DNA from: Hyphomicrobiales bacterium
Lineage (GTDB): Bacteria > Pseudomonadota > Alphaproteobacteria > Rhizobiales > Phreatobacteraceae
Direction of reading: 5' to 3'
Length of the DNA: 64,000 bases
Assembly: GCA_017304475.1 (NCBI GenBank)
Contig: JAFKKV010000016.1
Coordinates: forward strand, 124,001 to 188,000
Shown here: piece after piece, positions 19,856 through 40,192 of the stretch
Numbering within the stretch: position 1 is the stretch's first letter
How the letters are laid out: every line of letters begins with the position of its first letter
Made by a program: the position numbers and the translations under genes
Notes under the pieces: model-generated
What the model saw: only the letters and a program-made list of their open reading frames with translations
Told to the model about the DNA's origin: nothing
Databases searched by the model: none

Positions 19856-19875
19856 CGCGTTTCCCCGCTTTTGTG

Positions 19876-20768: not shown

Positions 20769-21848
20769 ATGCGGGTAAGCATTCTGGGCGCGGGCGCGAT
20801 CGCCTATGGCGCGGCCGCCTATCTGGCGCAGGCCGGACACGACCCCATGCTGTGGTCGCCTTCGGGCAAGAGCACCGCTGAACTTGCGGCCGGCGCGCCG
20901 CTGGTCGCCGTCAATGCGATCGAAGGCACTTTCCCCGTGCGGGTCGCCAAGGACTGCGCCGATGCCGTGGCCAATGCCGACGTGGTGATGATCGCCCTGC
21001 CCGGCTACGGCCACAAGCTGGCGCTCGACCAGGCGGCGCCGCACCTGCGCGAAGGCCAGACGGTGATCGTCAGTTCGCATGCCTCGTTCGGCGCGCTTTA
21101 TCTGTCGAAGCTTCTGGCCGCGCGCGGCGTCAGCGTGCCGATCGTCGTCTGGGGCACGACGGTGACGACCGGCCGGCTGCGCAGCCCGGCCCAAGTGGCG
21201 GTGGCGACGGTGCGCCAGAAGGTCGATGTCGCGACCTTGCCGGAAACCGCCATCGACGCGGGACACGCCCTCTGCACGACCCTGTTCGGCGACCGCTTCG
21301 TCAAGCGCGACGGGCTTCTCGCCATTGCGCTGAGCAATCTCAACCCGCAGAACCACCTGGGCATCGCGCTGTGCAACCTCACCCGCATGGAGCGTGGCGA
21401 GCAATGGGGCCAGGGCGAGAACATCACGCCGGCGGTCGGCCGGCTGATCGAGGCGCTCGACGACGAACGCCTGGCCATTGCCGCGACCTTCGGTCTGTCG
21501 GTCCGTACCGTGAAGGAGCATTTCTCGCTGTCCTTCCACGTGCCGATGGGCACCGTGTCGGAAATGAACCAGGAAATGCACCGGCAGGGCCGCGGCGGTT
21601 TCGGACCGGCGACGCTCGACACCCGTTATGTGCTGGAGGATGTGCCCTTCGGGCTGGTGCCAACAGCCCTGCTCGGCCGCCTCAGCGGCCGGCCGGCCGC
21701 CTTGCACGAGGCCGGCATCGCCATGTTCTCGGCGGCCTATGGGCGCGACCTGAACGCGGATAACGACCTGCTGCCGGAGCTCGGCCTGGAGACGATGCCG
21801 CTCAACGAGATGAAGCGCCTGCTGCGCACCGGCTTCTTGCCGTCGTGA
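20769..21848 (+). CDS. NAD/NADP-dependent opine (octopine/nopaline) dehydrogenase family protein
   Basis: A 359-aa cytoplasmic oxidoreductase. The N-terminal Rossmann domain begins VSILGAGAIAYGAAAYLAQAG (GxGxxA/G). The octopine dehydrogenase C-terminal domain contains NLNPQNHLGIALCNLTRMER, where His is the expected catalytic residue. Enzymes of this fold join or split an amino acid and an alpha-keto acid through a secondary amine (opines), and some members act on other 2-hydroxy or amino acids. GAGGAG lies 7 nt upstream of the ATG. It is divergent from the XRE-kbl-tdh-ABC gene set and probably belongs to the same pathway. A strong hairpin follows the gene. Confidence 0.88.
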   Translation: MRVSILGAGAIAYGAAAYLAQAGHDPMLWSPSGKSTAELAAGAPLVAVNAIEGTFPVRVAKDCADAVANADVVMIALPGYGHKLALDQAAPHLREGQTVIVSSHASFGALYLSKLLAARGVSVPIVVWGTTVTTGRLRSPAQVAVATVRQKVDVATLPETAIDAGHALCTTLFGDRFVKRDGLLAIALSNLNPQNHLGIALCNLTRMERGEQWGQGENITPAVGRLIEALDDERLAIAATFGLSVRTVKEHFSLSFHVPMGTVSEMNQEMHRQGRGGFGPATLDTRYVLEDVPFGLVPTALLGRLSGRPAALHEAGIAMFSAAYGRDLNADNDLLPELGLETMPLNEMKRLLRTGFLPS

Positions 21849-24260: not shown

Positions 24261-25631
24261 ATGAGCCACAAGTCTCCCTTCGACCAGCTCTATGATCAAT
24301 TCAATCAGGAGGTGCCCGAGGATCACTTCCCGCAGGCCGGCATGACGGCTTTCGCAGCCAAGGCGACCGTCAACAGCGAAGCCTGGATGGACGCCCGCCC
24401 GGAGATGAACCTGTCGTCCTTCGTAACGACCTTCACCGAGCCGGAGGCGCTGGAGATCGGCCGCAACAATTTCCTCAAGAACTATATCGACCACGACATG
24501 TATCCCCAGCTCTTCGCCATGGAAGGGCGCATGGTCAAATGGCTGCACCAGCTGTGGAACGGCCCGAAAGACGCCGAGCCCTACGGCACCGCGACCGTAG
24601 GCTCCTCGGAAGCCTGCATGCTGGCGGGCCTGGCGCATAAATGGAACTGGCGGCAGGCGCGCGAGGCCGCGGGCAAGGATGCCAGCAAGCCAAACATGGT
24701 CACCGGCGGCAATGTCCAGATCGTCTGGAAGAAGTTCCTGCGCTATTTCGACGTCGAGCCGCGCATCGCCCCGCTCAAGCCCGGCAATTACCGCCTGACC
24801 ACCGAGCACCTGGACCGCCTCGTCGATGAGAACACCATCGCCATCGTGGCGATCGCCGGCCAGACCTTCACCGGCGAGGACGACGACATCCAGGAGATCC
24901 ACGACTGGCTCGACGCCCACGAGAAGAAGACCGGCCGCAGCATCCCCATGCATATCGACGGGGCGTCGGGCGGCTTCGTCAACCCGTTCCTCTATCCCGA
25001 CTATGTCTGGGATTTCCGCCTGCCGCGGGTCCAGTCGATCAATGCATCGGGGCACAAGTTCGGCCTGGTGCCTCCCGGACTCGGCTGGGTGATCTTCCGC
25101 GAGCGCAAGATCTTCAACGAGGACTTGGTCTTCTACGTGAATTATCTCGGCGGCGAGATGCCGACGGCGACCTTGAACTTCAGCCGCAACGCCGCGCAGA
25201 TCGCCTATCAATATTACGCCTTCCTGAGGCTCGGCTTCGAGGGCTATCGCGAGATCATGAAGCGCACCGTGGAAAATTCGGAGTTCCTGCGCCAGCGTCT
25301 CGTCGACAGCGGCTATTTCGAGATCATGAACAAGACCCAACGCATTCCCGTGGTGGCGGTGACGCTGAAGGGCAAGCACCGGTTCAACGAATTCGATGTC
25401 TCGGCCAAGGTGCGCGAGCGCGGCTGGGTGCTGTCGGCCTATTCCATGCCGCCCGATGCGCAATCGGTGGTCAGCCTGCGTGTCGTCGTTCGCCCGCATC
25501 TCAACCACAACGTCATCAACGGCCTGGCCGACGACATCATCAATGCCTGCAAATGGCTGGACGAGCATGGCGGCACGGCCGCGGCACCGACGCTGCACAG
25601 CTCCCACAAGGTGTCGCCGAGCAAGTGCTGA
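24261..25631 (+). CDS. gadB: Glutamate decarboxylase
   Basis: A 456-aa PLP enzyme converting L-glutamate to GABA and CO2, consuming a cytoplasmic proton. PLP-binding Lys266 lies in NASGHKFGLVPPGLGW, and HIDGASGGFV carries the Asp that holds the pyridine nitrogen. TVGSSEACMLAGLA is the phosphate-side motif. Compared with E. coli GadB the first 10 or so residues, which form the low-pH membrane-targeting helix bundle, are shorter. The C-terminus ends KVSPSKC rather than with the autoinhibitory histidine of GadB. It is followed 87 bp later by two AspT-family exchangers, so it probably works with them as an acid-resistance or GABA-export cycle. Confidence 0.95.
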   Translation: MSHKSPFDQLYDQFNQEVPEDHFPQAGMTAFAAKATVNSEAWMDARPEMNLSSFVTTFTEPEALEIGRNNFLKNYIDHDMYPQLFAMEGRMVKWLHQLWNGPKDAEPYGTATVGSSEACMLAGLAHKWNWRQAREAAGKDASKPNMVTGGNVQIVWKKFLRYFDVEPRIAPLKPGNYRLTTEHLDRLVDENTIAIVAIAGQTFTGEDDDIQEIHDWLDAHEKKTGRSIPMHIDGASGGFVNPFLYPDYVWDFRLPRVQSINASGHKFGLVPPGLGWVIFRERKIFNEDLVFYVNYLGGEMPTATLNFSRNAAQIAYQYYAFLRLGFEGYREIMKRTVENSEFLRQRLVDSGYFEIMNKTQRIPVVAVTLKGKHRFNEFDVSAKVRERGWVLSAYSMPPDAQSVVSLRVVVRPHLNHNVINGLADDIINACKWLDEHGGTAAAPTLHSSHKVSPSKC

Positions 25632-25718
25632 GACGCGCCGCGGCGCCTTGGCGGTCGCGGCCTTCGCAGGCTCGCGCCGCCGGGACGAATGAGGAGACCT
25701 GGCAAGGAGCACGCCGGA

Positions 25719-27419
25719 ATGACCTGGCTGATGCAATTTCTCGGCAATAACCCCTTCATCCTGCTGTTCCTGGTGGTCGGCCTCGCGGTCTGGATGGGCG
25801 GCTGGACGATCAAGGGCTATGGCCTGGGGACCGTCGCCGCCGCCATCATCGTCGGCTGCGGCTTTGCCATTCTCGGCTCGGTCTTCGGTGTCCGCTTCCA
25901 CCTCGACGACTTCACCAAGAGCCTATTCTATTACCTCTTCATGTATGGCGTCGGCCTGCGGGTCGGGCCGTCCTTCGTCAACGGACTGAAGGGCGACGGG
26001 CTGAAATTCGCCGGGCTCGCCGTGCTGTGCTCCTGTCTCGGCCTCGCCATAACGGTCCTCGGCGTGCGCCTGCTCGGCCTGCCGGTCGGCTCGGCCGGCG
26101 GCATCCTGGCCGGCGCCATGACCATGTCGGCGGCCATCGGCTCGGCCGAACAGGCCGTGACGTCAGGCGCCGTGGCCTTGGCCGCCGGTACCACCGCCGA
26201 ACAGGTCTCCGGCATGATCGCCCTGTCCTACGGCATCACCTATATCTGGGGCACGGTCGGCATCATCCTGATCTGCAAATATCTGCCGCGCTGGTGGGGT
26301 GTCGACGCCAAGGCGGCGGCCAAACGTTATGAGGCCGAGCACGGCGTGCCGAATGTCGACGACGCGGGGCTGAGCGGCTACCAGCCGTTCGGCTGGCGCG
26401 CCTATCGCGTCGAAAGCAACGAGACCGCCGGCAAGACCATCGCGGAATTCCGCAAGGCCTATCCGGAATATCAGATCGACAATGTCGCGCGCGGCAAGGA
26501 TCTGATCGGCGCCAGCCCGGATCTCGTGCTGCAGAGGGGCGATGTCGTGGCGCTCGGCGGCGGCCTCGGCCCGCTGACCGACCATATGGGCATTATCGGG
26601 CCCGAAGTGCCTCATACACACGTGCTCAACATTCCGCTCGACCAGGCGGAAATCGTCGTGACCAGCAAGGAGGCGATCGGCCGCAAGCTCAGGGAATACC
26701 GCCAGACCCCGATTGCCGGCCAGGTGCAGCTCACCCGCATCGAACGCGGCGGCGTGCCGATCCCGATCGGCCTCGACACCGAGCTGCAGCGCTTCGACGT
26801 CCTGTTCCTCAGCGGCCTGAAATCGGCGGTCGACAAGGCCGGCCAGATGGTCGGCCGGGTCGCCCGGCACAGCACATCCACCGATCTGCTCACGCTCTCC
26901 TTCGGCATGATCCTCGGCTTTCTCATCGGCCTGATCGAGGTCCCGGCCTTCGGCGCCGCCGTCGGCCTCGGCAATGCCGGCGGCCTGCTGGTCTCCGGCA
27001 TCATCGTCTCGTCGATCGTGTCGCGCCTGCGCTTCTTCGGCAATACGCCGAACGCCGCGCGCAACATCCTGGAGGACATGGGCCTGATCGTCTTCGTCGC
27101 GATCGTCGGGGTGAATGCCGGTGCCGACCTTCTGTCGCAACTGACCGGCGCCATCGCGCTGAAGATCTTCATCGTCGGTTTCCTGGCCTGCTCGGTGCCG
27201 CCCTTCGTGGTCTGGGCCATCGGCTTCCACATCTTCAGGATGAACCCGGCTCTGCTGATGGGCGGGGTGGCCGGGGCGCGCAGCCATTCCGGACCGGCGC
27301 GGGAGGCTGCCAAGGAGATCGACAGCAACGTGCCGTGGATCGCCTTTCCCGTCGGCTACGCGGTCTCGGGCGTGCTGCTCACCGTGTTCGGTTACGTCGC
27401 GATGGTGCTGGCGCATTGA
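25719..27419 (+). CDS. AspT-family amino acid exchanger (AAEx), copy 1
   Basis: A 566-aa inner membrane exchanger of the aspartate:alanine antiporter family. Two membrane halves (about 10-180 and 385-566) flank a cytoplasmic region with two TrkA-C/RCK-like segments (about 205-370). Paired YidE/YbjL-type duplication motifs are present (MTMSAAIGSAEQAV in half 1, GVAGARSHSGPA in half 2). ATG 25719 follows AAGGAG at 25702-25707. In Tetragenococcus, AspT exchanges aspartate for alanine made by a decarboxylase; by analogy this protein would swap glutamate for GABA made by the adjacent GadB. No GadC (APC family) gene is nearby. Confidence 0.88.
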   Translation: MTWLMQFLGNNPFILLFLVVGLAVWMGGWTIKGYGLGTVAAAIIVGCGFAILGSVFGVRFHLDDFTKSLFYYLFMYGVGLRVGPSFVNGLKGDGLKFAGLAVLCSCLGLAITVLGVRLLGLPVGSAGGILAGAMTMSAAIGSAEQAVTSGAVALAAGTTAEQVSGMIALSYGITYIWGTVGIILICKYLPRWWGVDAKAAAKRYEAEHGVPNVDDAGLSGYQPFGWRAYRVESNETAGKTIAEFRKAYPEYQIDNVARGKDLIGASPDLVLQRGDVVALGGGLGPLTDHMGIIGPEVPHTHVLNIPLDQAEIVVTSKEAIGRKLREYRQTPIAGQVQLTRIERGGVPIPIGLDTELQRFDVLFLSGLKSAVDKAGQMVGRVARHSTSTDLLTLSFGMILGFLIGLIEVPAFGAAVGLGNAGGLLVSGIIVSSIVSRLRFFGNTPNAARNILEDMGLIVFVAIVGVNAGADLLSQLTGAIALKIFIVGFLACSVPPFVVWAIGFHIFRMNPALLMGGVAGARSHSGPAREAAKEIDSNVPWIAFPVGYAVSGVLLTVFGYVAMVLAH

Positions 27420-27473
27420 GTGCCGGCACCCCTGCTCTTTCCATTGAGGACACCGTGCCAACGAGGACTTGCC

Positions 27474-29159
27474 ATGCTCGAGCCGCTGCGGGCCGTGATC
27501 GCCTCGCCCGAGGCCATGCTGTTCCTGACCATCGTGCTCGGCGTCCTGTTCGGCCGGCAGAAGCTCGGCGGCTTCGCCTTTGGCAGCGCCGCCGGCACCT
27601 TGCTGGCTGGAACGCTGCTCGGCGCATTGTTCGGCGCGGCCGTGCCCGACCTGTCACCGACGCTCAAATCCGTCGCCTTCCTGTTCTTCGTCTTTGCCGT
27701 CGGTTTCCAGAGCGGCCCGCAATTCTTCGCCTCGCTCGGCCGCAAGACCTTGCCGCTCGCCATCGTCACCCTCGTCGTGGCGGCCGCCGGCCTCGCCAGC
27801 ACCATCCTGGTGGTCCGCCTGTTCGGCCTGGACCAGGGCACCGCCATCGGGCTCGCCGCCGGCGCGCTGACCCAGACGGCCATGCTGGGCACGGCCTATG
27901 GCGCGCTCGAAGGCCTCGGCCTTTCGCCCGCCGCACTCGCCAGGATCCAGGGCCAGGCGGCGGTCGTCTTCGCCCTCAGCTATGTCTTCGGCACGATCGG
28001 CGTCATCCTGTTCTGCACGCAGATCGCACCGCGCCTGATCGGCGTCGACCTCGAGACCGCGGCGCGCGCGCTGGATGCCGGCACCGCCGAGGCGGCCGCC
28101 CCACAGGGACAATTGCTCGACTTCCGGACGCTGGTCGCACGCGCTTTCCGCGTCGGCCCGGCTGATGCCATGACGGTGAAAGACCTCGACGCCGCGCTCG
28201 GCCCACTGGCCGCGGTCGCCCGCATCCGCCGGGGCAACGCCGAGCTCGGGCCAGCGGCGGAGCTCGTGCTGCGGCGCGGCGACATCATCGCCATCCAAGG
28301 CTACCGGCCGGCCATGGTGGCGGCCGCCGCCAGGATCGGCGCGGAAGTCGCCGCGGACGAATTGGTCACCGATCTCCTGGGACCGGGCACCGATGTGGTC
28401 ATCGCACCGCGCTTTGCCGGGCAGACGCTGCACGAAGCGGTCCAGGAGCTGGGCGCCGCCGGACATGGCCTGTTCCTGCGCCGCATCCGGCGCCAGGCCC
28501 ATGACATTCCCGCCACCGCGGCGACCGTATTGATGCCCGGCGACGTGCTGACCCTGACCGGTCCGGCGGAACGGCTGGCCGAGGCGCTGCCGCTGGTCGG
28601 AACCGCGATCGATCCGGGCAACCGGGCGGATATCGCCTTTCTGGCCGCCGGCCTGCTCGCCGGCGTGCTGATCGGGCTCGTGTCGCTGACCTTGCGGAAC
28701 ATACCGATTACGCTCTCGGCCGGCGGCGGCGCGCTGATCGCCGGCCTGGTGTTCGGCTGGTGGCATGCGCGCAGGCCGGCCGACGCCCATGTGCCACCCG
28801 ACGCCACCCAGATCATGTGGGATTTCGGCCTTGCCTCCTTCTGCGCGCTGGTCGGCCTGACCGCCGGGCCGCAGGCCGCGCCGGCGCTGGCTGCCGCCGG
28901 CCCGACCATCCTTGTCGCCGGCATCATCGTGACCCTGCTGCCCCAGCTCGTCGGCCTCTATGTCGGCCACTCTCTCCTGCACATTCACCCGGTCCTGCTC
29001 GTCGGGGCGCTTGCCGGCGCCCAGACCCAGGACGCCGCCATGCTGGCCGCCTGCGATCTCGCCGAGAGCCCGGCACCAACCCTTGGCTTCACCGTGCCCT
29101 ATGCCATCGGCAATATCGTGCTCACGGTGCTTGGCCCGGCCGTCGTCGCCTTCACGTGA
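27474..29159 (+). CDS. AspT-family amino acid exchanger (AAEx), copy 2
   Basis: A 561-aa paralog of the preceding exchanger with the same fold: membrane half 1 (about 5-175), two TrkA-C-like segments (about 205-370), membrane half 2 (about 380-561). The equivalent motifs read ALTQTAMLGTAYGAL and GALAGAQTQDAAM, quite different from copy 1, so the two have diverged in substrate or role. ATG 27474 has GAGG about 9 nt upstream. The gap to copy 1 is 54 bp. They may form a heterodimer, or one may import glutamate and the other export GABA. Confidence 0.87.
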   Translation: MLEPLRAVIASPEAMLFLTIVLGVLFGRQKLGGFAFGSAAGTLLAGTLLGALFGAAVPDLSPTLKSVAFLFFVFAVGFQSGPQFFASLGRKTLPLAIVTLVVAAAGLASTILVVRLFGLDQGTAIGLAAGALTQTAMLGTAYGALEGLGLSPAALARIQGQAAVVFALSYVFGTIGVILFCTQIAPRLIGVDLETAARALDAGTAEAAAPQGQLLDFRTLVARAFRVGPADAMTVKDLDAALGPLAAVARIRRGNAELGPAAELVLRRGDIIAIQGYRPAMVAAAARIGAEVAADELVTDLLGPGTDVVIAPRFAGQTLHEAVQELGAAGHGLFLRRIRRQAHDIPATAATVLMPGDVLTLTGPAERLAEALPLVGTAIDPGNRADIAFLAAGLLAGVLIGLVSLTLRNIPITLSAGGGALIAGLVFGWWHARRPADAHVPPDATQIMWDFGLASFCALVGLTAGPQAAPALAAAGPTILVAGIIVTLLPQLVGLYVGHSLLHIHPVLLVGALAGAQTQDAAMLAACDLAESPAPTLGFTVPYAIGNIVLTVLGPAVVAFT

Positions 29160-29183: not shown

Positions 29184-31208
29184 TCAGCGTGATCCGCAGC
29201 AGGAACCGCCGGCCGGACCCGGCAGGTCGCGGCCGTCGACGCTGTGGCCGTTGCGCTCGGGCGGCAGGTCCATGGCTGGATTGCCCGCGAAAAAGCCGTT
29301 CGGTTTCAGCGTGAAGCCGGCATATTCGACCGGCATGATCGGGAAGTCCTCGGGCTTGCAGACATGGGTGTGGCCGAAGGAGTGCCAGAGGACGATGTCC
29401 TCGTTGGCGATGGCGCGGTTCTGCTTGACGTAGTGTGGCAGGCCGTCGCCACCGGCATGGTTGTTGGGATAGTCGCCGCTCGCATATTTCTCGCGCGCGT
29501 CATAACGCGTGACCCAGACATGCTTGGTGGCAAAGCCGCCGCGCGTGCGGACGAAACTGCCCTCCTGCGCCAGCATCAAGGGGCTCGGCATGACCACGAG
29601 CTTGTAGCCGGGCGCATTGCCGACGCTGTTGCGCACATTGGGATTGGTGATCTTCCAATAGCGGCCGGTCCGGCCGTCGGCCTCGCGCGCCGCGTCCCGT
29701 TCGCGGGCGAGCAGCCGGCTCGTCGTGTCGAAGACATTGCCATGCGGGTTGTCGGTGCCCCAGGGGCGCGGCACGAATTCATGCTCGGTGACGGAATTGC
29801 CGTCGCCATCGACTATCATGTGCAGGCGCACATTGAAGAAGTGCTGGTGGGTCGGGCCGCCGAGCTCTTCGGTCACCATGCCGCCCCAGGGATAGGTCTT
29901 GCCGGGCGCCACCGCCGCAGTCTGGACGATGCCGGTGAGCTTCGCCTCGAGCTGGATCGTGCCGTCCTGGTAGAGGTACCAGTAGAAGCCGTAATCGTAA
30001 TTCCCCACCGTGGCGAAGAACGAAATGACCAGCCGGCGCGAGCGCCGGACCTCGAACAGGCCGTTGCGAAACTCGTAGTGTTTCCAGATGATTCCATAGT
30101 CTTCCTCATGCATGCACACGGCATTTTTCATGACGAAGGGCTGGCCGAGATCATCGGCCGCGGGAATGTCGAAATAGTGGATATGGCCGAGGCAGTCGCA
30201 GCCGAGTTCCAGCGCATTCGCGAGCTTGCCGAGGCCATATTCGCCAGCGTCGAAAGCGCTCTTCCAATAGTGGTTGGCGGTCGGGTCGGCATAGGGCACG
30301 ACCATTTCGGTGACGCTGGCGCGATAGACGACCGGCCGCTCGCGCTCACCGTCCTTGTAGCCGATGCGGTGCAGCACCAGCCCCTCGCGCGGCGTGAAGC
30401 CGATCCGGAAGCTCCAGTTCTGCCAGTCGACCTTCCAGCCGTCGACCTTGAAGCTCGGCCCGTCCGGCTGGGTGATGTGGAGCGGCTTCAGGTCGGTGCG
30501 CGTCTCACTCCAGCTGTCGCGATCGTAATTGTGCTTCGTCTTGGGCACCCGCACGGCTTCGGCCTCGTCGACCAGGTCGACGACCCGCTTGGCGATCAGG
30601 TCGACCACCGCGACGACACCCTCGATCGGGTGGGCATAGCCATTGTCCTTGAGCTCGGAGCGATAATAGCTCACGGCGCGCACGAGCCGCCGGCCGCGCT
30701 CGAAGTCGCGGCCGAAATAGCCGGACGAGAAGGGATCGATCTGGGCGAGCGCCATGTCGGCATCGCTCAGGCCGCGCCGGCGCATGGCCGCCTGCCAGCC
30801 CGTATCCGCCTTGACGATCTGCTCGCAGAGGGAGAACTCCTCGACCATGACCGGCGGCTGGCCGTAAGGCTCCTCTCCGTTAGGGATCGTGTGCTCGGAC
30901 GCGATCTCGCCGCGCCCGAGATCGACGATGACCTCCCGCGACACGCCGGTCGTCGTGTTGACCAGCACCAGGAAGGCTTGGCGCGCCGGCCGCGGGGCGC
31001 TTTCTGGACTGCCGTCGAAGGTGAGGACCTCGGCTTTCGCCGGCTCCTCGAGGCGGGCGATGGCGAAACGTTCGTGACGATCGAGCGCCATTCGCTCCCG
31101 GGCAATGGCGCAGGCGGTGGCAAGTTCCTCGCCGGTCAGGGGATCGAGCGGGTGTCCGGCATGGAGCGCGGCCGGGGCGGACGAAGTTTGCAGGATCGAT
31201 ACCGTCAT
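29184..31208 (-). CDS. Copper-containing primary amine oxidase
   Basis: A 674-aa copper/topaquinone amine oxidase that oxidises primary amines to aldehydes with release of NH3 and H2O2. The topaquinone precursor is Tyr404 in VGNYDYGFYW, the catalytic base Asp320 in SAFDAGEYGLG. Copper ligands are the histidines of HQHFF (454, 456) and the later HSFGHTHV. N2/N3-like domains precede the core and no signal peptide is visible, resembling the cytoplasmic Arthrobacter enzymes. ATG 31208 has GGAA 5 nt upstream; ATG 31223 is an alternative. It ends in SCCGSR. It lies 136 bp downstream of two GMC genes on the same strand and probably uses the amine brought in by the nearby ABC importer. Confidence 0.94.
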   Translation of the reverse strand: MTVSILQTSSAPAALHAGHPLDPLTGEELATACAIARERMALDRHERFAIARLEEPAKAEVLTFDGSPESAPRPARQAFLVLVNTTTGVSREVIVDLGRGEIASEHTIPNGEEPYGQPPVMVEEFSLCEQIVKADTGWQAAMRRRGLSDADMALAQIDPFSSGYFGRDFERGRRLVRAVSYYRSELKDNGYAHPIEGVVAVVDLIAKRVVDLVDEAEAVRVPKTKHNYDRDSWSETRTDLKPLHITQPDGPSFKVDGWKVDWQNWSFRIGFTPREGLVLHRIGYKDGERERPVVYRASVTEMVVPYADPTANHYWKSAFDAGEYGLGKLANALELGCDCLGHIHYFDIPAADDLGQPFVMKNAVCMHEEDYGIIWKHYEFRNGLFEVRRSRRLVISFFATVGNYDYGFYWYLYQDGTIQLEAKLTGIVQTAAVAPGKTYPWGGMVTEELGGPTHQHFFNVRLHMIVDGDGNSVTEHEFVPRPWGTDNPHGNVFDTTSRLLARERDAAREADGRTGRYWKITNPNVRNSVGNAPGYKLVVMPSPLMLAQEGSFVRTRGGFATKHVWVTRYDAREKYASGDYPNNHAGGDGLPHYVKQNRAIANEDIVLWHSFGHTHVCKPEDFPIMPVEYAGFTLKPNGFFAGNPAMDLPPERNGHSVDGRDLPGPAGGSCCGSR

Positions 31209-31344
31209 GAGGGTTCCGGCCATGTCTGTCTTGGCGGGAATGATCGCCGGTTACCTCGGCGCGGCAATCAACCGATCGGTGGAGGCGCTCGCGGCTTCGG
31301 CCGGAGCGACACGGCCACCATCCGATCACCGCCTTGGGACGGGA

Positions 31345-32919
31345 TCATCTGGCAAGGTTTGCCCAATCATTCACGAGCCTTTCGGCCGCGCGCAAGGCCA
31401 GGGCATTGACGGTGAAGGTCGGATTGACCGCGCCCTCGGTCGGAAACAGTCCCGGCCCTGCGATCCAAAGGTTCGGCAGGTCGTGCGTCTGGCCATATCC
31501 ATTGGTGACCGAGGTCGCGGCGGCCTTGCCCATGATCGTGCCGCCATGAAAATGGATGCCGCCCGGATCCGGATTGAACCAGGCGGACCTGGCACCCGCC
31601 GCAGTCATGATGCGCAGGCCCTCCTCGTTCACATGACGCCAGAGCTTCAGCGCGTCCTCGTCATAGGAATGGACGACTTTGGCAAGCGGCACGCCGAACT
31701 CGTCCTTCTGGTCGGCCAGCACAATCCGGTTGCCGGCATTCGGCAGCGCCTCGCTCAAGCCCAGCATGCGCGTCAGCCCGCGCGCGGCCTGTCTCATGTG
31801 AGCATGCAGATCCTCGCCGAACAGCGCGCCGCGCGCATTGACGAAGCCGAGGATGTCGTTCGGCTTCTGCGCGAAACCCACCTGCCACATGGTGCTGCCG
31901 AACAGGCCCGGACGGGCGTCCTTGGCGTAGCCATCCTGCGACATCAGCAGACCGCCGGTAATGCCCATGTGGTTTTCGACATTCTCGTCGAAAATGCCCC
32001 AGACGCCCGCGCCGGTATGGGTCATGGCATAGCGGCCGAGCAGCCCGCTGGAATTGGCGAGCCCGTCGCGATGGCGGTCCGTCGCGGAGTTCAGCAGAAT
32101 GCGCGGGTTCTGCACGACGAAAGCGGCGAGCACGACCACCTCGGCCAGTTGAACCACCTTTTGCCGGTCCTCGCCGTAATATTCGACGCCCACCGCGCGA
32201 TTGCCCGTGGCGTCCGTCAAGACCCGCGTGACATAGCTCGACGGACGGATTTCGGCTCCAGCCTTGACCGCGTCAGGCAAATAGACGGCCTGCGCATTGC
32301 CGACCGCGCCGATCGGGCAGCCGGCATGGCACCAGCCGTCATAGATGCAGGCGGCGCGGTTCTTGTAAGGCGCGCTGAGGATGGCCGAAGGCAGAGGCGC
32401 GACGCGCATGCCGAGTTTGCGCATGCCCTCGGCGACGACGTCGGCATGGCGGAACGATTTCAGCGGCGGCAGCGGATAGGGCGCGCCGGGCGGCCGCCAG
32501 ACCTCGGCGGCCGCGTCTCCGGAAATGCCGATATCCGCCTGGACCCGATCGTAATAGGGGCGCAGGTCGTCATAACCGATCGGCCAGTCGAGACCGCGGT
32601 CGTGACGCGATCTCATCTCGAAATCGGCCGGATGCAGTCGCGGCCAATTGGCGAAGTGATGCGTGGTCGAGCCGCCGACCGCCCAGCCGGCGTTGAAATT
32701 GTTGCCGTAGCGATTGCGCCCCTCGGCCAGAACCGGCGCGCCGCCCCATTTCAGGCGGCGGCCCCAGATCTGCGAGCTGATCCAGTCGGTCTCGTCGCGT
32801 TTCGGCCCGTGCTCGAGAACGACGACCCTCTTGCCGGCCCGGGCCAGCGTCGCCGCGAAGACCGAGCCCGCCGCGCCGCTGCCGACGATCACGACGTCGA
32901 CCTTTTCAGGATTGGCCAT
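31345..32919 (-). CDS. GMC-family FAD dehydrogenase with Cys-X5-Cys-X3-Cys motif, copy 1
   Basis: A 524-aa flavoprotein of the glucose-methanol-choline family, similar to the catalytic subunit of gluconate/fructose/glucose FAD dehydrogenases. The FAD motif is VIVGSGAAGSVFA (10-22). Cys191, Cys197 and Cys201 form CIYDGWCHAGC, the same spacing as the 3Fe-4S cluster cysteines of bacterial FAD-glucose dehydrogenase. The active-site end reads FHGGTIMG then GAVNPTFTVNALALR, with Asn in the final catalytic position. It has no signal peptide of its own; partners of this type are exported with a Tat-bearing small subunit, here the gene at 34556. No cytochrome c subunit is adjacent. The gap to copy 2 is 57 bp. 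Confidence 0.88.
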   Translation of the reverse strand: MANPEKVDVVIVGSGAAGSVFAATLARAGKRVVVLEHGPKRDETDWISSQIWGRRLKWGGAPVLAEGRNRYGNNFNAGWAVGGSTTHHFANWPRLHPADFEMRSRHDRGLDWPIGYDDLRPYYDRVQADIGISGDAAAEVWRPPGAPYPLPPLKSFRHADVVAEGMRKLGMRVAPLPSAILSAPYKNRAACIYDGWCHAGCPIGAVGNAQAVYLPDAVKAGAEIRPSSYVTRVLTDATGNRAVGVEYYGEDRQKVVQLAEVVVLAAFVVQNPRILLNSATDRHRDGLANSSGLLGRYAMTHTGAGVWGIFDENVENHMGITGGLLMSQDGYAKDARPGLFGSTMWQVGFAQKPNDILGFVNARGALFGEDLHAHMRQAARGLTRMLGLSEALPNAGNRIVLADQKDEFGVPLAKVVHSYDEDALKLWRHVNEEGLRIMTAAGARSAWFNPDPGGIHFHGGTIMGKAAATSVTNGYGQTHDLPNLWIAGPGLFPTEGAVNPTFTVNALALRAAERLVNDWANLAR

Positions 32920-32976
32920 GTCACGTTTCCCCGATGGATTTGCCGCGCGTTTGCGCCGGCCGGATCAAGACCGCGC

Positions 32977-34551
32977 TCAGCGCGCGATCGCGCCCCAGTG
33001 CCGCGTCAGATGGTCGGCGGTCCGTTGCGCCAGCGCGTGGACGGTGAAGGTCGGGTGCACGGCGCCCTCGGTCGGAAACAGGCCCGCTCCGGTGAGGAAC
33101 AGGTTCGGCACGTCGTGGGTCTGGCCATAACTGTCGGTCACGGATGCGCTGGGGTCGCTCCCCATGACGGTGCCACCCGCCAAGTGGGCGATATTCGGCG
33201 CCGGTCCCGCCCAGACCTCCGAGGCCCGCGTCGTCTTCAGGGCCCGCACGCCTTCGTCCCGGGCATATTGGAACAGCCGGATGCTGTTTCCGTCCAGGCC
33301 GTGCACGACGCGCGCCAGCGGGAAACCGAACTGGTCCTTGCGATCGGCGAGCAGGACGCGGTTTTCCGCCCGCGGCACCTCCTCGCCCACCGCCTGTACC
33401 TTGCCGAGACCGCGCGCCGCCTTCTTCATGAAGTCTTGCAGCGGCTGGCCGAACAGGGCTCCCCGCGCATTGGCGAAGCCAAGGATGTCGTTCGGCTTCT
33501 GGGCGATGCCGATGGTCCAGGTATAGCTGCCGAAGGCTTCGGCGCGGCCGTCTTTGGCATAGCCGTCCTGGGACATGAGCAGCGCCGCCGACAGGCCCAT
33601 ATGGTTCTCGACATCCTCGTCGAACATGGCCCAGACATTGGCGCCGGTATGGGTCATGACGTAGTGACCGAGCCGGCCGCTGGAATTGCCGAGGCCGGCC
33701 TTGTGCTTGTCGGTCGCCGAATTGAACAGGATGCGCGGGTTCTCGACAGCGAAGGCGGCGAGGATCACGACATCGGCGTGTTGCTCCCTGCGCTCCCTGT
33801 CGCGCGTGTAATATTCGATGCCGGTCGCGCGCTCCTGCCTGGCATCCATCAGCACCCGCGTCACCGTGCTGAACGGGCGGATTTCGGCGCCGGCCTTGAT
33901 CGCCCGCGGCATATAGGTCACCTGCGGATTGACCAATGCGCCGATCGGACAGCCGGCCTCGCACCAGCCGTCATAGATGCAGGCCGCCCGGTCGCCGCGC
34001 GCCACCGTGTTGATCGCCACCGGCATGGGCGCGGTCCGGATGCCGATATTGCGGAAGCCCTCCGCCATCAGCTCGGCATGTTTGAAGGTTTTGGTCGGCG
34101 GCATGGGGTAGGGTTCGCCGGCCGGTCGCCAGACCTCGGCCGCCGCGTCTCCGGCGATGCCGACCTCGCTCTGGATCCGGTCGTAATAGGGGCGCAGGTC
34201 GTCGTAGCCGATCGGCCAGTCGAGGCCGCGGCCGAAGAGCGACCGCATGCGGAAGTCCTGCGGGTGCAGCCGGGGCCAGTTGCCGAACTGGTGGAGCGCC
34301 GCGCCGCCGACGCCCCAGCCGGCATTGTAGTTGTAGCCGACCGGATGGCTGCCCTCGAGCACCATGGGCGCACCGCCCCATTTGAGCCGGCGGGCCCAGA
34401 TCTGCGAGCTGACGAGGTCGGTCAGCTCGAAGGGCGGCCCCTGCTCCAGGATGACCACTTTCTTGCCGGCCTCGCCGAGCCTTGCCGCGATGAGCATGGC
34501 GGTCGGGCCGCCGCCGACGATGACCGCATCGACCTTCTCGTTGCCGGCCAT
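32977..34551 (-). CDS. GMC-family FAD dehydrogenase with Cys-X5-Cys-X3-Cys motif, copy 2
   Basis: A 524-aa paralog of the next gene, identical in length and with the same Cys191/197/201 motif (CIYDGWCEAGC). It differs at two key places. The FAD motif reads VIVGGGPTAMLIA, with Ala in place of the third Gly, and the catalytic end reads GAVHPTFTVHALAQR, with His where copy 1 has Asn. The two enzymes therefore probably act on different substrates or at different rates. It starts 4 bp after the stop of the subunit-3 gene, so translation is likely coupled. Export as a complex with that Tat substrate is inferred. Confidence 0.88.
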   Translation of the reverse strand: MAGNEKVDAVIVGGGPTAMLIAARLGEAGKKVVILEQGPPFELTDLVSSQIWARRLKWGGAPMVLEGSHPVGYNYNAGWGVGGAALHQFGNWPRLHPQDFRMRSLFGRGLDWPIGYDDLRPYYDRIQSEVGIAGDAAAEVWRPAGEPYPMPPTKTFKHAELMAEGFRNIGIRTAPMPVAINTVARGDRAACIYDGWCEAGCPIGALVNPQVTYMPRAIKAGAEIRPFSTVTRVLMDARQERATGIEYYTRDRERREQHADVVILAAFAVENPRILFNSATDKHKAGLGNSSGRLGHYVMTHTGANVWAMFDEDVENHMGLSAALLMSQDGYAKDGRAEAFGSYTWTIGIAQKPNDILGFANARGALFGQPLQDFMKKAARGLGKVQAVGEEVPRAENRVLLADRKDQFGFPLARVVHGLDGNSIRLFQYARDEGVRALKTTRASEVWAGPAPNIAHLAGGTVMGSDPSASVTDSYGQTHDVPNLFLTGAGLFPTEGAVHPTFTVHALAQRTADHLTRHWGAIAR

Positions 34552-34555
34552 GGCG

Positions 34556-35113
34556 TCACCATGTCTCGACGGGCGGAATATGCGGCATGTAGGGGATGCT
34601 CAAGGCCTCGAACCCCTTTTCCGTGCCGTAGACGACGTCGACCGCGTCGTTGCGCGTCACGTAGTAGAAGAAGGGTGAGCCGGGTCCGCTCCAGCCATCC
34701 GGCGGCCGCTGGCGCATCTGATCGACGAAGGCGTGTCGCTGTTCGGGCGTCAGAGCCGCGAATTTCGCGCCGTGCGCCTTGAGCGAGGCCTCATCGAGCC
34801 CCTTCAGCCCGGCGCGATAGAAATTGACATAGGGCGGCGCGACATTGACCAGCCGGGCGATGAGCAGGGCCTCGCCCGGCGGCACGCCCAGCTGGTGATC
34901 GACGAAATGGACGATGCCGGCCTCCCGAGCGCCGGGCAGCAGCGTCTCGCCCAGCGCCTCCAGCGCATCGCGCTCGTCCGACGTGAGCACCTTGAGCGGA
35001 ACCGCCTCGGCCCATGCCTGCCTGGGCGAAAGCGCGACGTCGACACCGTCGACCGTGAACACCAGGGCGCTCAGCGCCACGCCCTTCAAGACCACACGAC
35101 GGCTGGCAGCCAT
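34556..35113 (-). CDS. Gluconate 2-dehydrogenase subunit 3 family protein (Tat signal)
   Basis: A 185-aa small subunit of membrane-associated FAD dehydrogenases. ATG 35113 follows a strong GGAGG and gives a twin-arginine signal, SRRVVLKGVALSALVFTVDG. The mature part contains LTSDERDALEALGETLLPGAREAG and the C-terminal PFFYYVTRNDAVDVVYGTEKGFE, typical of the family. It acts as the chaperone and export escort of the GMC catalytic subunit. Here one small subunit precedes two GMC genes. The longer upstream frame reaches 35296 but would lose the signal at the N-terminus. Confidence 0.88.
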   Translation of the reverse strand: MAASRRVVLKGVALSALVFTVDGVDVALSPRQAWAEAVPLKVLTSDERDALEALGETLLPGAREAGIVHFVDHQLGVPPGEALLIARLVNVAPPYVNFYRAGLKGLDEASLKAHGAKFAALTPEQRHAFVDQMRQRPPDGWSGPGSPFFYYVTRNDAVDVVYGTEKGFEALSIPYMPHIPPVETW

Positions 35114-35146
35114 GGCGCCCCTCCAAAATGTCTCATGTGATATTTC

Positions 35147-35160
35147 ATAAGAAATCTTAT
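35147..35160. promoter_or_regulatory. AT-rich palindrome upstream of the GMC/amine oxidase genes
   Basis: ATAAGA-aa-TCTTAT is a perfect 6-bp inverted repeat in an AT-rich island 34 bp upstream of the subunit-3 start. It lies within the 289-bp gap between the LuxR gene and the operon. It is placed where a -10 region or operator would be. A role for the adjacent LuxR-type protein is a guess. Confidence 0.4.
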
Positions 35161-35402
35161 ATGGAGTTTTTCCAATGTAAATGCGGTTTCGAATTTCGGA
35201 TGCATGAATTGGCGGCGCCGAGCGCCTCATGTCTGGGCGATTGCCCGGATCGAGATCAGCCTCTCGGCTGCCGCCGCGCGCACGTGCCGACAGCACTCAG
35301 GCAGATCGAGGCAGCGTCAAAGGAAAGGCGATCCCGCAAGCACAGGCGCTCGGCGACGTGACCGGCAGGACAGGGGTCGGAAGGAGGCGGCTCTTGCGCC
35401 TT

Positions 35403-36089
35403 TCAGTCGATGGCGGAGAGGCGCGCCACCAGACCGGCGCGCGTCTCGACGCCGGTCTTCTCGAAAATATGGATCAGGTGGGTCTTCACCGTGGCAAGGC
35501 CGATGCCGAGGCCCATGGCGATGTCGGAATTGGTCCGGCCGCAGCACAGGAGATGGGCGACTTCGGCTTCGCGCGGCGTGAGATGGAACAGGCTGCGCGC
35601 CTTGCGGCCGGGCACGACCCTGGCCGGTGCAAAGACGAAGGGAAGGTTGAACTCGATATAGCGCTGCAGGTCGCGCGCCAGGCGATCATAATCCGGCGGC
35701 GGACCGCTATCCGACGACGTCCACATGATGCTGATGCCGGCGGTGATGCGGCCATCATGACGGAAGACCATCTCGGCGGTGTCGACCGTATCGAAGCGGC
35801 CGATGAAATCGCGATATTCGTCGAAATCGTCGACCGTCACGCCGCCGGCGGCCTCCTCCAGCCAGAGCACCGGCTCGGGCCTGACCGAGAGATGGCGCAT
35901 ATGCAGCGGGTCCTTGGCATGCATCCCGCGCAAATAGAGCCGATGGAGTTCGGCCGGCACCTGCCGGCAGACGAAATTATAGAGGTTGCACTCGTCGTCG
36001 ACAGAATAGAAGGCAAGCCGGCTCGAGCCGACCGAGCGCCCGACGAGCCGCAGCGTTTCCTGAATGAACTCTTGCTGCCGGTCGGACAT
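35403..36089 (-). CDS. LuxR-family transcriptional regulator
   Basis: A 228-aa DNA-binding regulator. The C-terminal GerE-type helix-turn-helix covers about residues 165-228 (HLTPREAEVAHLLCCGRTNSDIA then LATVKTHLIHIFEKTGVETR). The N-terminal 155 residues form a sensor domain with LAFYSVDDECNLYNF, which I do not match to a receiver domain or clearly to an autoinducer domain. It lies 289 bp upstream of the subunit-3/GMC/amine oxidase genes on the same strand and is divergent from the ABC importer, so it is the natural regulator for both. The ligand is unknown; an amine or sugar acid is possible. Confidence 0.88.
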   Translation of the reverse strand: MSDRQQEFIQETLRLVGRSVGSSRLAFYSVDDECNLYNFVCRQVPAELHRLYLRGMHAKDPLHMRHLSVRPEPVLWLEEAAGGVTVDDFDEYRDFIGRFDTVDTAEMVFRHDGRITAGISIMWTSSDSGPPPDYDRLARDLQRYIEFNLPFVFAPARVVPGRKARSLFHLTPREAEVAHLLCCGRTNSDIAMGLGIGLATVKTHLIHIFEKTGVETRAGLVARLSAID

Positions 36090-36444: not shown

Positions 36445-37224
36445 ATGGGGCAGACCAACCGCGCGCTGAAGGCATTGACCTTCGCGGCCCCTCTCCTGTT
36501 CCTTCTGCTGGTCTGGGCGGCGGTCATACCGCTGTTCGACGTATCGCCTCAGGTCTTTCCGGATATCGTCTCGGTGGCCCAGGCCGGCCTCGACGGCATC
36601 CGCGACGGCTCGCTGATCCAGCATGTCGGCGCCAGCCTCCTCAGGGTCGTTCTCGGCACGGCTCTCGCCATCCTGGTCGGCGTGCCGCTCGGCATCGCCA
36701 TGGGGGTGAGCCAGGGCGTGTCGAACTTTCTGACGCCTCTGCTGCGGTTCTTTTCGGTGCTCGCCGGCATTGCCTGGATCCCGATCGCCACGCTGTGGTT
36801 CGGCTACGGCTTCGGCGCGATCGTCTTCGTCATCTTCAACGCGGTGTTCTTCGTCGTCGCCTACAACACCTTGCTCGGCGTCTCGACCATTCCGATGCCG
36901 CTGCGCCATGCCGCCGCCTCGCTCGGCGCGCGGCCGCTGGCCATGCTCACCGATGTGCTGCTGCCCGGCGCGCTGCCCAATATCGTCACCGGCATCCGCA
37001 CCGGCCTCGGCTTTGCCTGGCGCGGCCTGATCGCGGCGGAAATGATCGCGACCAATGTCGGCCTCGGCTACATGCTGTTCGTCGCCCGCGACTTCTACCG
37101 GACCGAAGTCATCGTCTTGGGCATGATCGTCATCGGGCTGATCTGGCTCGCCATCGACCGGCTGCTGCTGGTCCCGCTCGAGCGCGCCACGATCGAGCGC
37201 TGGGGCATGGTGCGCCCGGTATGA
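36445..37224 (+). CDS. ABC transporter permease, nitrate/sulfonate/taurine type, subunit 1
   Basis: A 259-aa inner membrane permease of the SsuC/TauC family with six predicted helices. The EAA loop reads HAAASLGARPLAMLTDVLLP (about residues 153-172), followed by GALPNIVTGIRTGLGFAWRG. The start has GGGGAG upstream. It overlaps the second permease by 4 nt (ATGA). Most SsuC-type importers use a homodimer; here two different permeases are encoded, implying a heterodimer. Confidence 0.92.
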   Translation: MGQTNRALKALTFAAPLLFLLLVWAAVIPLFDVSPQVFPDIVSVAQAGLDGIRDGSLIQHVGASLLRVVLGTALAILVGVPLGIAMGVSQGVSNFLTPLLRFFSVLAGIAWIPIATLWFGYGFGAIVFVIFNAVFFVVAYNTLLGVSTIPMPLRHAAASLGARPLAMLTDVLLPGALPNIVTGIRTGLGFAWRGLIAAEMIATNVGLGYMLFVARDFYRTEVIVLGMIVIGLIWLAIDRLLLVPLERATIERWGMVRPV

Positions 37225-38027
37225 CCACCTTGCTCAAGATCTACGGCGCCTATGTCCGCACCACCGCTCGCTTTCCGGTGCTGCACAGCATCATCCCCTT
37301 CGTGCCGCTGGTCGCGCTCTGGGCCGTCGTCGCCGAGGCCGGCCTGTTTCCGCGCGCCTTCTTTCCCGGTCCCCTCGACGTTGTCAGCTCGTTCGGCGAC
37401 CTCATCTACAAGGGCATCCTGCCCGACTATCTCGCCGACAGCGTCGGCCGGCTGCTGGTCGGGGCGGCCGCCGGCATGGCCATCGGCATTCCCCTGGGCC
37501 TGCTGATCGGGCTCAATGCACGCGCCCACGCCCTGCTCTCGCCAATCCTCCTGTTCTTCCAGGCGATCGGCGACATCGCCTGGCTGCCGATCCTGATCAT
37601 CTGGTTCGGTTTCGGCTTCACCACCATGACCTTCGTCATCGTCTATACCGTGCTGTTCCCGGTGGTGCTCAGCACGGTGCTCGGTGTGCGCTCGGTGAAG
37701 CAGGACCTGACCCGCGCGGCCCAATGCCTGGGCGCCTCGCCGCACCGCATCCTCTGGGAGGTGGTGCTGCCCGGCGCGCTGCCGAACATCGTCACCGGCC
37801 TGCGCAACGGCCTCGGCTATGGCTGGCGCGCGCTGATCGCCGCGGAAATGATCGTCGGCACCAGCGGCATCGGCTTTCTCATGTTCGACGCCCGGCGCGC
37901 CGGCTCGGTGGTCGAGATCGTGCTCGGCATGATCGTGCTCGGCATCCTCTGGTACATTGTCGACGCCTGGGTGCTGGCACCCATCGAACGGGCCACGGGA
38001 CAAAGATGGGGGCTCGTGACGCGATGA
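37221..38027 (+). CDS. ABC transporter permease, nitrate/sulfonate/taurine type, subunit 2
   Basis: A 268-aa paralog of the preceding permease, six helices, with the EAA loop RAAQCLGASPHRILWEVVLP and then GALPNIVTGLRNGLGYGWRA. It overlaps permease 1 by 4 nt and ends 10 bp before the ATPase gene. It forms the second half of the translocation channel. Substrates of this superfamily include sulfonates, taurine, nitrate, pyrimidine precursors and phthalate; which one applies here is unknown. Confidence 0.92.
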   Translation: MTTLLKIYGAYVRTTARFPVLHSIIPFVPLVALWAVVAEAGLFPRAFFPGPLDVVSSFGDLIYKGILPDYLADSVGRLLVGAAAGMAIGIPLGLLIGLNARAHALLSPILLFFQAIGDIAWLPILIIWFGFGFTTMTFVIVYTVLFPVVLSTVLGVRSVKQDLTRAAQCLGASPHRILWEVVLPGALPNIVTGLRNGLGYGWRALIAAEMIVGTSGIGFLMFDARRAGSVVEIVLGMIVLGILWYIVDAWVLAPIERATGQRWGLVTR

Positions 38028-38037
38028 TGCGCAGCCG

Positions 38038-38796
38038 ATGAAGACGCTCAGCCTGAAATCCCTGTCGAAGACCTATTTCGATGCCTATGCCGGTGTCCAC
38101 GTCACCGCCGTGCACGATGTCAGCCTCGATATCGCCGAGGGCGAATTCGTCGCCATCGTCGGCCCGTCCGGCTGCGGCAAGTCGACCATTCTCAACATGA
38201 TCGCCGGCTTCATCCCGGTCTCCGGCGGCGAGATCCTGGTCGGTGGTCGGCCAGTCAAGGGGCCGGGTCCTGATCGCGGCGTGGTGTTCCAGTCGTTTGC
38301 GCTGTTTCCCTGGAAGACCGTGCTGGACAATGTCGGCTTCGGACCGAAAATGCGCGGCGTCCCGAAACCCGAACGGGACGCCATCGCACGCGAATATCTG
38401 GCGCTCGCCGGACTGAGCGAGGCCGCCGGCCGCTATCCGAACGAGCTCTCCGGCGGCATGCAGCAGCGTGTCGGCGTGGTCCGCGCGCTCGCCAACCGGC
38501 CCGACGTGCTGCTGATGGACGAGCCTTTCGCCAGCGTCGACGCGCAGACGCGCATGACGTTGCAGGAGGAACTGACCCGCATCTGGCAGGAGCGGCGGCC
38601 GACCGTGCTGTTCATCACCCATGATGTCGCCGAGGCGGTCTTCCTGGCGAGCCGGGTCGTGGTGCTGTCCAAGGGCCGGGTCAAGGAACAGGTCGAGGTG
38701 CCGTTGCCGCGCCCGCGCGTCTGGGACGAGCTCGTGCAGGACGACCGGTTCAAGGACCTGTCGGCCCGGGTGCTCAGCCTGGTGAGGTCGGCGTGA
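38038..38796 (+). CDS. ABC transporter ATP-binding protein, nitrate/sulfonate/taurine type
   Basis: A 252-aa ATPase of the SsuB/TauB family. Walker A GPSGCGKST (about 43-51), Q-loop VVFQSFALFPWKTV, signature LSGGMQQRVGV, Walker B VLLMDEPFASVD, switch His in FITHDVAEAVFLA. There is no TOBE domain, as usual for this group. The stop overlaps the start of the small membrane protein gene. Confidence 0.93.
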   Translation: MKTLSLKSLSKTYFDAYAGVHVTAVHDVSLDIAEGEFVAIVGPSGCGKSTILNMIAGFIPVSGGEILVGGRPVKGPGPDRGVVFQSFALFPWKTVLDNVGFGPKMRGVPKPERDAIAREYLALAGLSEAAGRYPNELSGGMQQRVGVVRALANRPDVLLMDEPFASVDAQTRMTLQEELTRIWQERRPTVLFITHDVAEAVFLASRVVVLSKGRVKEQVEVPLPRPRVWDELVQDDRFKDLSARVLSLVRSA

Positions 38797-39125
38797 CCAT
38801 GCTGCGCGCCGCGCTGGCCTCGACCAAGATCCGCATCCTTGCCGGGCTACTGGTCCTCTGGCTCGCCTGGCAGGCCTGGCTGGTCATCGCCGCACCGGCC
38901 AAGATCGCCGAAGGCTTTCCCGAAAGACTTCGGGTCAACGCCTTGATCACTCTGCCGTTTCCGCCCGAGCGCTTCCACATCCTGTTGTTCCAGCGCCATG
39001 GCCGCGTGTCCGGCGCGGAGGGCAATACCGTCGAACTGAGAGGCATCGCAAAAAGCGATCTCACCGCCATAGCCCGGCTCTACTGGGTCAGGCGGATAGA
39101 GCCACTGAGGGAGGGAGCATCATGA
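38793..39125 (+). CDS. Small single-pass membrane protein inside the ABC operon
   Basis: A 110-aa protein with one N-terminal transmembrane helix (ILAGLLVLWLAWQAWLVIAA, about 15-34) and a soluble domain of about 75 residues outside it. GTG 38793 overlaps the ATPase stop; ATG 38799 is the alternative. Its own stop overlaps the start of the substrate-binding protein gene, so it is translationally coupled on both sides. I do not recognise a family. Its place between ATPase and binding protein suggests a transporter accessory or assembly factor. Confidence 0.75.
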   Translation: MTMLRAALASTKIRILAGLLVLWLAWQAWLVIAAPAKIAEGFPERLRVNALITLPFPPERFHILLFQRHGRVSGAEGNTVELRGIAKSDLTAIARLYWVRRIEPLREGAS

Positions 39126-40192
39126 TCACGCGCAGAACCATCGTTGCCGGCACGCTGATCGCCGCGCCGGGCCTGATGCCCTATCGGGCGCAGGCGCAGA
39201 CCATGACCAAGCTCAAGGCCGGCATGGTCACCGGCATCGACCAGATCGGACTGCCGATCGCACTCGAACGCGGCTTCTTCGAAAAGGCCGGCCTGGACGT
39301 CACAATCGCCCGCCCCTATGCCACCGGCGTCGACGCCTTGAACGCGCTGCAGGCGGGCGAAAGCGAGATCGTCCAGGTCGGCGTCCCCATGATCGGAGCG
39401 GTGCTGCGCGGCATGGACCTGGTGGCGCTCGGCAATTACAGCGGCAATGCCACGAGGCGCGGCTCGGACGCCACCATGGCGCTGATCGCGCGTGCCGACA
39501 GTGGCATCGACAAGGCCAATCTCGCGAGCCTCAAGGGCAAGAAGATCGCCGCCTCCTTCGGCACGATCAACCATCTCTACATCCTGGCGCTCTTGGAAAA
39601 GGCCGGGCTTACGCCAACGGACGTGACGCTGGTCAATACCCCGCCGCCCGACATGACGGTGGCGCTGCTCGCCCGCGGCATCGATGCCTTCTCGGGCTGG
39701 GATCCCTGGCCAATCGTCGCCTTGAAGGACGTGCCCGGCGCCTATGAGGTGGTGCGCGGTGGCAATGTCATTTCCTATGTCGGCTTCAATGTCGCCCTCA
39801 GACCCTGGATCGAGCGGAACGGCCCGGCGATCGAGAAATTCCTGGCCGCCGTATCCGAGGCCGACCAGTGGATGCGCAAGAACTCCAAGGCCGCGGCGCA
39901 GGTCGCCACCCGCTGGATCCCCGGCCTGAAGGCGGATGTCGCGGAAGCGGCGATGGAATTCAACATCCAGCAGGCCGACCGCAGGCTTTCGGCCAATAAT
40001 TACCGGGCGCTGTGGAGCGCGGTCGACCGGCTGCACCGCCTCGGCTTCGTGCGCGGCACCTTCGACGTCAACAAACACGTCGAGCCGCGCCACATGCTGA
40101 AGGTGATGGCCGAGCAGCCGGCCCTGTTCAACGATCTGCCGGCCATTCCCGCCGATGTGGCGATCGGACCGGGCTTCGTCTTCACGCCATGA
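39122..40192 (+). CDS. Periplasmic substrate-binding protein, NMT1/SsuA type
   Basis: A 356-aa solute-binding protein of the nitrate/sulfonate/taurine group. The N-terminus has a twin-arginine-like signal (TRRTIVAGTLIAAPGLMP, cleavage after AQA). The mature part begins KLKAGMVTGIDQIGLPIALERGFFEKAGLDV, typical of the NMT1/THI5-like fold, with NALQAGESEIVQVGVP and SLKGKKIAASFGTINHLYIL lining the site. It completes a permease-permease-ATPase-accessory-SBP operon. The neighbouring amine oxidase suggests an amine or aminosulfonate ligand, which is only inference. Confidence 0.9.
   Translation: MITRRTIVAGTLIAAPGLMPYRAQAQTMTKLKAGMVTGIDQIGLPIALERGFFEKAGLDVTIARPYATGVDALNALQAGESEIVQVGVPMIGAVLRGMDLVALGNYSGNATRRGSDATMALIARADSGIDKANLASLKGKKIAASFGTINHLYILALLEKAGLTPTDVTLVNTPPPDMTVALLARGIDAFSGWDPWPIVALKDVPGAYEVVRGGNVISYVGFNVALRPWIERNGPAIEKFLAAVSEADQWMRKNSKAAAQVATRWIPGLKADVAEAAMEFNIQQADRRLSANNYRALWSAVDRLHRLGFVRGTFDVNKHVEPRHMLKVMAEQPALFNDLPAIPADVAIGPGFVFTP

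Follow-up and report, generated by a model that had tools for sequence, protein, structure and literature searches.

Flavin-dependent sugar dehydrogenases of the type represented by Burkholderia cepacia FAD-glucose dehydrogenase (BcGDH; PDB 6a2u/8grj) and Gluconobacter fructose dehydrogenase (FDH; 7w2j, 8jej) pass electrons through a 3Fe-4S cluster to a haem subunit, hence their use in glucose sensors. The locus described here shares with these enzymes a GMC fold (TM-scores of 0.87-0.89), three Fe-S cysteines, a histidine that contacts FAD, a Tat-type small subunit, and a catalytic subunit that lacks its own signal and for which export is predicted. It differs in having no triheme cytochrome, no cysteines for an intersubunit disulfide, and a small subunit of family PF13618 instead of PF12318; the GMC gene is also duplicated, and one copy, GMC1, has a His/His catalytic pair and a GxGxxA motif. 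The gluconate 2-dehydrogenase complex (PF13618 subunit, GMC and triheme cytochrome) has the same small-subunit family and the same order of small subunit followed by GMC. The window's genome encodes a complete set of this kind on its contig C70 (L135), but the present locus lacks the cytochrome gene and its GMC proteins fall in another branch (27% identity) with a different cysteine pattern. The copper amine oxidase (CuAO) of the locus matches Arthrobacter globiformis phenylethylamine oxidase (AGAO) over its full length, including the NYDY motif, the copper-binding histidines and the absence of a signal peptide; its gene differs in adjoining luxR and GMC genes. An uncharacterized locus in Bradyrhizobium manausense SZCCT0344 (L003) encodes a small subunit, GMC1 and GMC2 in the same order (70%, 74% and 81% identity, respectively) together with the operator-like element also seen in the window. 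There, genes for a GntR regulator, cupin/Ldh_2/RidA/FAA_hydrolase proteins and a transporter adjoin the GMC genes, and no CuAO is present.

The window, meaning the whole 64-kb stretch of DNA that was analysed, contains the following features (window positions).

29184..31223, minus strand: copper/topaquinone primary amine oxidase (CuAO), 679 aa, AGAO-like; Pfam Cu_amine_oxid, 9e-160
31345..32919, minus strand: GMC2, 524 aa, with the Cys triad, GxGxxG and a His/Asn pair as in BcGDH; Pfam GMC N and C domains
32977..34551, minus strand: GMC1, 524 aa, with Cys191/197/201, GxGxxA and the catalytic pair His456/His499; Pfam GMC N and C domains
34556..35113, minus strand: small subunit, PF13618 (gluconate 2-dehydrogenase subunit 3), 185 aa; Pfam Gluconate_2-dh3, 6e-17
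35133..35147, minus strand: operator-like site TGAAATATCACATGA, an exact match to the element common to L003 and contig C11
35403..36089, minus strand: LuxR-type regulator, 228 aa; Pfam GerE, 5e-11
36445..40192, plus strand: divergent NMT1/SsuA-type ABC transporter, with two permeases, an ATPase, a small protein and a binding protein

The small subunit and GMC1 genes are separated by 4 nt, GMC1 and GMC2 by 57 nt, and GMC2 and CuAO by 121 nt. The small subunit was assigned an ATG start preceded by a GGAGG-like site, and its open reading frame could begin as far upstream as 35296. A search of the region for terminator-like sites was negative, also in the gap between GMC2 and CuAO. A first-pass annotation had described one small subunit, two GMC proteins of equal length and then a CuAO; all of these are present on the minus strand, with families confirmed by Pfam. 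It did not mention the LuxR gene contained in the same range, the missing third glycine of GxGxxG and the histidine at the catalytic asparagine position in GMC1, or the Pfam family of the small subunit, which differs from that of cytochrome-linked relatives. On the other side of the CuAO gene, positions 24261-29159 (plus strand) hold a glutamate decarboxylase gene (521.8 bits, cut-off 380.4) and, behind it, a tandem pair of AspT-type antiporter genes whose products, of 576 and 579 aa, each score under the family cut-off; this region is a glutamate decarboxylase system with a doubled exchanger.

Cys191, Cys197 and Cys201 of the GMC proteins align column for column with Cys212, Cys218 and Cys222 of BcGDH, which are the ligands of its 3Fe-4S cluster (PMC6719666). 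The cluster spacing that had been noted for both proteins holds at the level of individual residues, and the triad is invariant in 45 aligned GMC proteins, many of them from other phyla. Both GMC proteins carry these residues, and a 3Fe-4S cluster is predicted to occupy them. The closest solved structures by sequence were the alpha subunit of the Burkholderia glucose dehydrogenase (1.8e-54) and FDH, and it was to these that the GMC1 model (mean pLDDT 93.7) gave the TM-scores quoted above; pyranose oxidases and a C-glycoside oxidase were the next-best folds. His87 aligns with BcGDH His105, for which density continuous with FAD has been reported (PMC6719666). A disulfide links Cys213 of BcGDH alpha to Cys152 of the small subunit gamma (PMC6719666); the Cys213 position is Ile here and the small subunit contains no cysteine, so this intersubunit bond has no counterpart. 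The GMC proteins start directly at the FAD domain, with no signal of their own. They are probably exported flavoproteins of a sugar-dehydrogenase-like kind, and the alignments and the structural model support the assignment of GMC and Tat small subunit as a putative periplasmic Fe-S flavodehydrogenase.

GMC1 and GMC2 are 61% identical, and the tree places their duplication before the split of the window genome and the L003 genome. The two copies are not equivalent, a feature not recorded before: GMC2 retains the His/Asn pair of BcGDH, whereas GMC1 has His/His together with GxGxxA, and both changes are also present in the Bradyrhizobium orthologue of GMC1. Across the clade to which these proteins belong, Asn, Ser and His all occur at the second catalytic position; Ser (a His/Ser pair) was seen in some members, at L006, L014, L149 and L150. 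Purifying selection seems to act on both copies, with dN/dS values of about 0.15 and 0.12, estimated with dS near saturation.

This clade comprises 22 rows of the tree (support 100/99), and its sister group under midpoint rooting contains BcGDH, triheme-linked forms and haloarchaeal forms. The clade is rare in sampled genomes: when about 390 genomes were drawn from each of the order, the class and the phylum, the thresholds used picked up a member in just one other genome. In clade loci, a PF13618 small subunit with an RR motif usually directly precedes the GMC gene, the exceptions without an adjacent small subunit being L149, L150 and one of the two L006 copies. The RR (Tat-like) motif is invariant in 16 small subunits. 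Two cytochrome-linked small subunits were tested and both belong to PF12318; the use of PF13618 here in its place is a new observation. A relationship of the small subunit to BcGDH gamma was considered and was not retained, as neither a PDB profile match nor a Foldseek/VIA match was obtained, although this is a weak test in that an isolated subunit may model poorly.

Every predicted gene of the 64-kb window lacks a CxxCH motif, in agreement with the earlier statement that no cytochrome c subunit is nearby, and the same is the norm across clade loci. No ORF with two or more CxxCH motifs was found within 6 kb in 21 clade loci, many of which lie on short contigs where neighbouring genes may be missed; at L006 a diheme protein lies somewhat beyond this range. 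Of the BcGDH/G3DH-like loci from the same scan, 11 of 11 are directly preceded by a triheme cytochrome gene (at L078 by ORF scan). Given this difference, the absence of a cytochrome is a trait of the clade and not peculiar to the window locus. Two candidates for a cytochrome supplied in trans were rejected: the triheme gene on C70 belongs to a set with its own GMC, and that on C24 follows a 941-aa Tat protein, which is not a GMC. No orphan cytochrome partner was identified in the window's genome. On C75 of this genome, a GMC of the wider cysteine-triad group (L136, 3798-5896) likewise has no cytochrome, and a 147-aa gene behind it may encode a small subunit. The tandem of two GMC genes was found in two genomes only, that of the window and that of Bradyrhizobium (L003), with L010 cut by a contig end; plasmids carried single GMC genes only, and viral contigs carried nothing. 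One plasmid of 36 kb from Deinococcus psychrotolerans (NZ_CP034189.1; L148, 1-2137) has a small subunit-GMC pair of the clade with restriction-modification genes next to it, which points to horizontal spread. Searches of the literature collection for cytochrome-less PF13618-GMC enzymes or for a LuxR-CuAO pair returned nothing relevant.

The CuAO is, as judged from its sequence, a complete AGAO-like enzyme of the PRK11504 subfamily, with a full-length match of 949 bits (cut-off 651), a phmmer E-value of 1.5e-167 to AGAO, the NYDY cofactor motif, HQH and the third histidine. Inspection by eye showed no hydrophobic N-terminal signal, which bears out the earlier reading that it lacks a signal peptide. 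CuAO genes were present in 11 of 12 genomes of the genus, with 69-75% identity for the copies outside the window; their usual place is between smc and the ATP-synthase Fo genes. The GMC genes were absent from all the other genus genomes. The window CuAO groups with a copy from another family (SH-aLRT 95), outside the other copies of the genus. Homologues of the window LuxR were found in four other genomes of 397 in the order, and a CuAO gene adjoins in three of them (G019, G246 and G087, not G386); the two genes are divergent in G019 and G246 and codirectional in the window and G087. The G087 locus (L133, contig C1, 1-10134) encodes a LuxR 57% identical to that of the window, then a CuAO, the components of an SBP_bac_8-type ABC transporter and another CuAO; it may represent a more complete version of a LuxR-CuAO cluster for amine oxidation.

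The operator-like element ties the GMC genes to other loci. In the window, an exact copy occupies the stretch 20-34 nt ahead of the small-subunit start codon, immediately following a promoter-like TTTACA-16-TAAGAT. At L003, a GntR/FCD gene is divergent from the small-subunit gene, and the DNA between the two contains the element TGAAATATCNNRTGA, which belongs to a palindrome around AATA. The element also occurs there 42 nt upstream of the cupin/Ldh_2/RidA/FAA_hydrolase operon and upstream of an operon for an NMT1-type binding protein, TctC and an amidohydrolase. Four matches were counted in L003 against 0.49 expected, a number reached in none of 100 shuffles, with two of the four being overlapping halves of one palindrome. 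In the window's genome there were 10 matches against one for the reversed control. Contig C11 of this genome carries a GntR orthologue of 74% identity, beside NAD-biosynthesis genes, and the counterpart of the cupin/Ldh_2/RidA operon, which the element precedes by about 45 nt. Exact matches on C7 and C10 lie inside unrelated genes and were set aside as probable chance. Because the element is common to these loci and C11 also carries the GntR gene and the cupin/Ldh_2/RidA operon, the GMC block looks like a branch of a GntR-controlled catabolic route, a pattern that suggests catabolism of a sugar- or hydroxy-acid-like compound. The amidohydrolase and FAA hydrolase of L003 presumably belong to the same two superfamilies as the lactonase and diketo-acid hydrolase of L-fucose/L-rhamnose routes, and from this match a sugar- or hydroxy-acid-like substrate of the GMC proteins is guessed, at scores well below the NCBIfam cut-offs. 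A lactonase and a diketo-acid hydrolase are included in the non-phosphorylating routes for these sugars (PMC11199699). Downstream of the twin GMC genes, L003 also encodes, in tandem, two proteins that resemble the large subunit of N,N-dimethylformamidase (16747-21459, minus strand); the one tested has DMFA2_C and a lectin-like domain.

These observations bear on how the genes of the window belong together. The first-pass annotation had proposed a single pathway in which the GMC proteins oxidize the hydroxyl of an amino alcohol or amino sugar outside the cell, the divergent ABC system imports the product, and the CuAO then oxidizes the amine. In favour of such a pathway, the genes adjoin on one strand, separated by short gaps that lack a terminator, and an NMT1-type binding protein is also encoded near the twin GMC genes of L003. 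Conserved GMC-CuAO synteny, the check proposed for it, was nevertheless absent: CuAO was found at none of 20 related GMC loci, while CuAO genes occur genus-wide without GMC genes and the element and GntR tie the GMC genes to the cupin/Ldh_2/RidA operon. No conserved link between the GMC genes and the divergent transporter was found, the L003 ABC transporter not being orthologous. CuAOs oxidize R-CH2-NH2, but a 2-amino sugar bears its amine on a secondary carbon, which makes such a sugar a chemically awkward substrate. The joint pathway is accordingly regarded as very improbable; what stands of the earlier interpretation is the GMC protein and Tat small subunit as an Fe-S dehydrogenase, supported by the Cys triad, the RR motif and the fold. 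An unlikely but somewhat less distant alternative is that the CuAO was captured: in this strain its gene would be co-transcribed with the GMC genes under the GntR-controlled promoter, and the enzyme would now act with the GMC proteins without having been part of the original pathway. The lack of a terminator-like site, the 121-nt gap and the grouping of the CuAO outside the other genus copies fit this. Against it, co-transcription is a conjecture from gene layout, luxR is still upstream, and 121 nt leaves room for a promoter.

Other alternatives concern the GMC proteins themselves. Oxygen-using oxidases related to pyranose oxidases, with cysteines that no longer hold a cluster, would agree with the absence of a cytochrome in the clade, the next-best folds and the His/His pair of GMC1, as known from glucose oxidase. 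Invariance of the triad across 45 divergent members would be unexpected for a relic, and the Tat small subunit has been kept, such that we give this little credence. It is also conceivable, if quite unlikely, that one small subunit exports a heterodimer of GMC1 and GMC2, with GMC1 (His/His, altered FAD motif, selected in two genera) as a specialized partner, GMC2 as the main catalytic half, and two 3Fe-4S clusters passing electrons to a quinone or other acceptor without a cytochrome subunit.

The preferred reading, with a probability of roughly 0.58, is that two independent modules lie side by side, a cytochrome-less Fe-S flavodehydrogenase (module A) and amine oxidation (module B). It is based on the protein families, the ligand residues, the RR motif, the cytochrome-less and CuAO-less neighbourhoods of relatives, the LuxR-CuAO association and the common operator-like site. 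Module A would consist of the small subunit, GMC1 and GMC2, with the Tat signal of the small subunit carrying one or both folded, signal-less GMC proteins to the periplasm by hitch-hiking export. There, a sugar- or polyol-like substrate would donate hydride from one of its hydroxyls to FAD, and electrons would pass via the 3Fe-4S cluster to an acceptor encoded elsewhere, such as a quinone or a general periplasmic cytochrome. The GntR/FCD regulator on another contig would control both module A and the cupin/Ldh_2/RidA operon. Module B would be the cytoplasmic CuAO, probably under LuxR, with module A having been placed between luxR and the CuAO gene; on the simplest view, a LuxR-CuAO unit existed earlier and the small subunit-GMC-GMC block was inserted between its genes. 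The position of the CuAO next to the GMC genes is thus most likely mere neighbourhood. Several points count against two modules. GMC2 and CuAO may be co-transcribed, given the 121-nt gap with no terminator; only two twin loci are known; the LuxR-CuAO orientation differs in G019 and G246; the element matches include the overlapping ones in L003 and those within unrelated genes on C7 and C10; and many contigs are so short that adjoining genes may have escaped notice.

Further work on the clade, on the asymmetric twin and on the GntR regulon would be worthwhile. A clade of this kind, with the cluster ligands and Tat small subunit retained but no cytochrome, would reveal which other acceptor the cluster can serve, and its enzymes might be smaller. 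For the partner and the substrate, the asymmetric pair and the predicted regulon of GntR offer direct handles.
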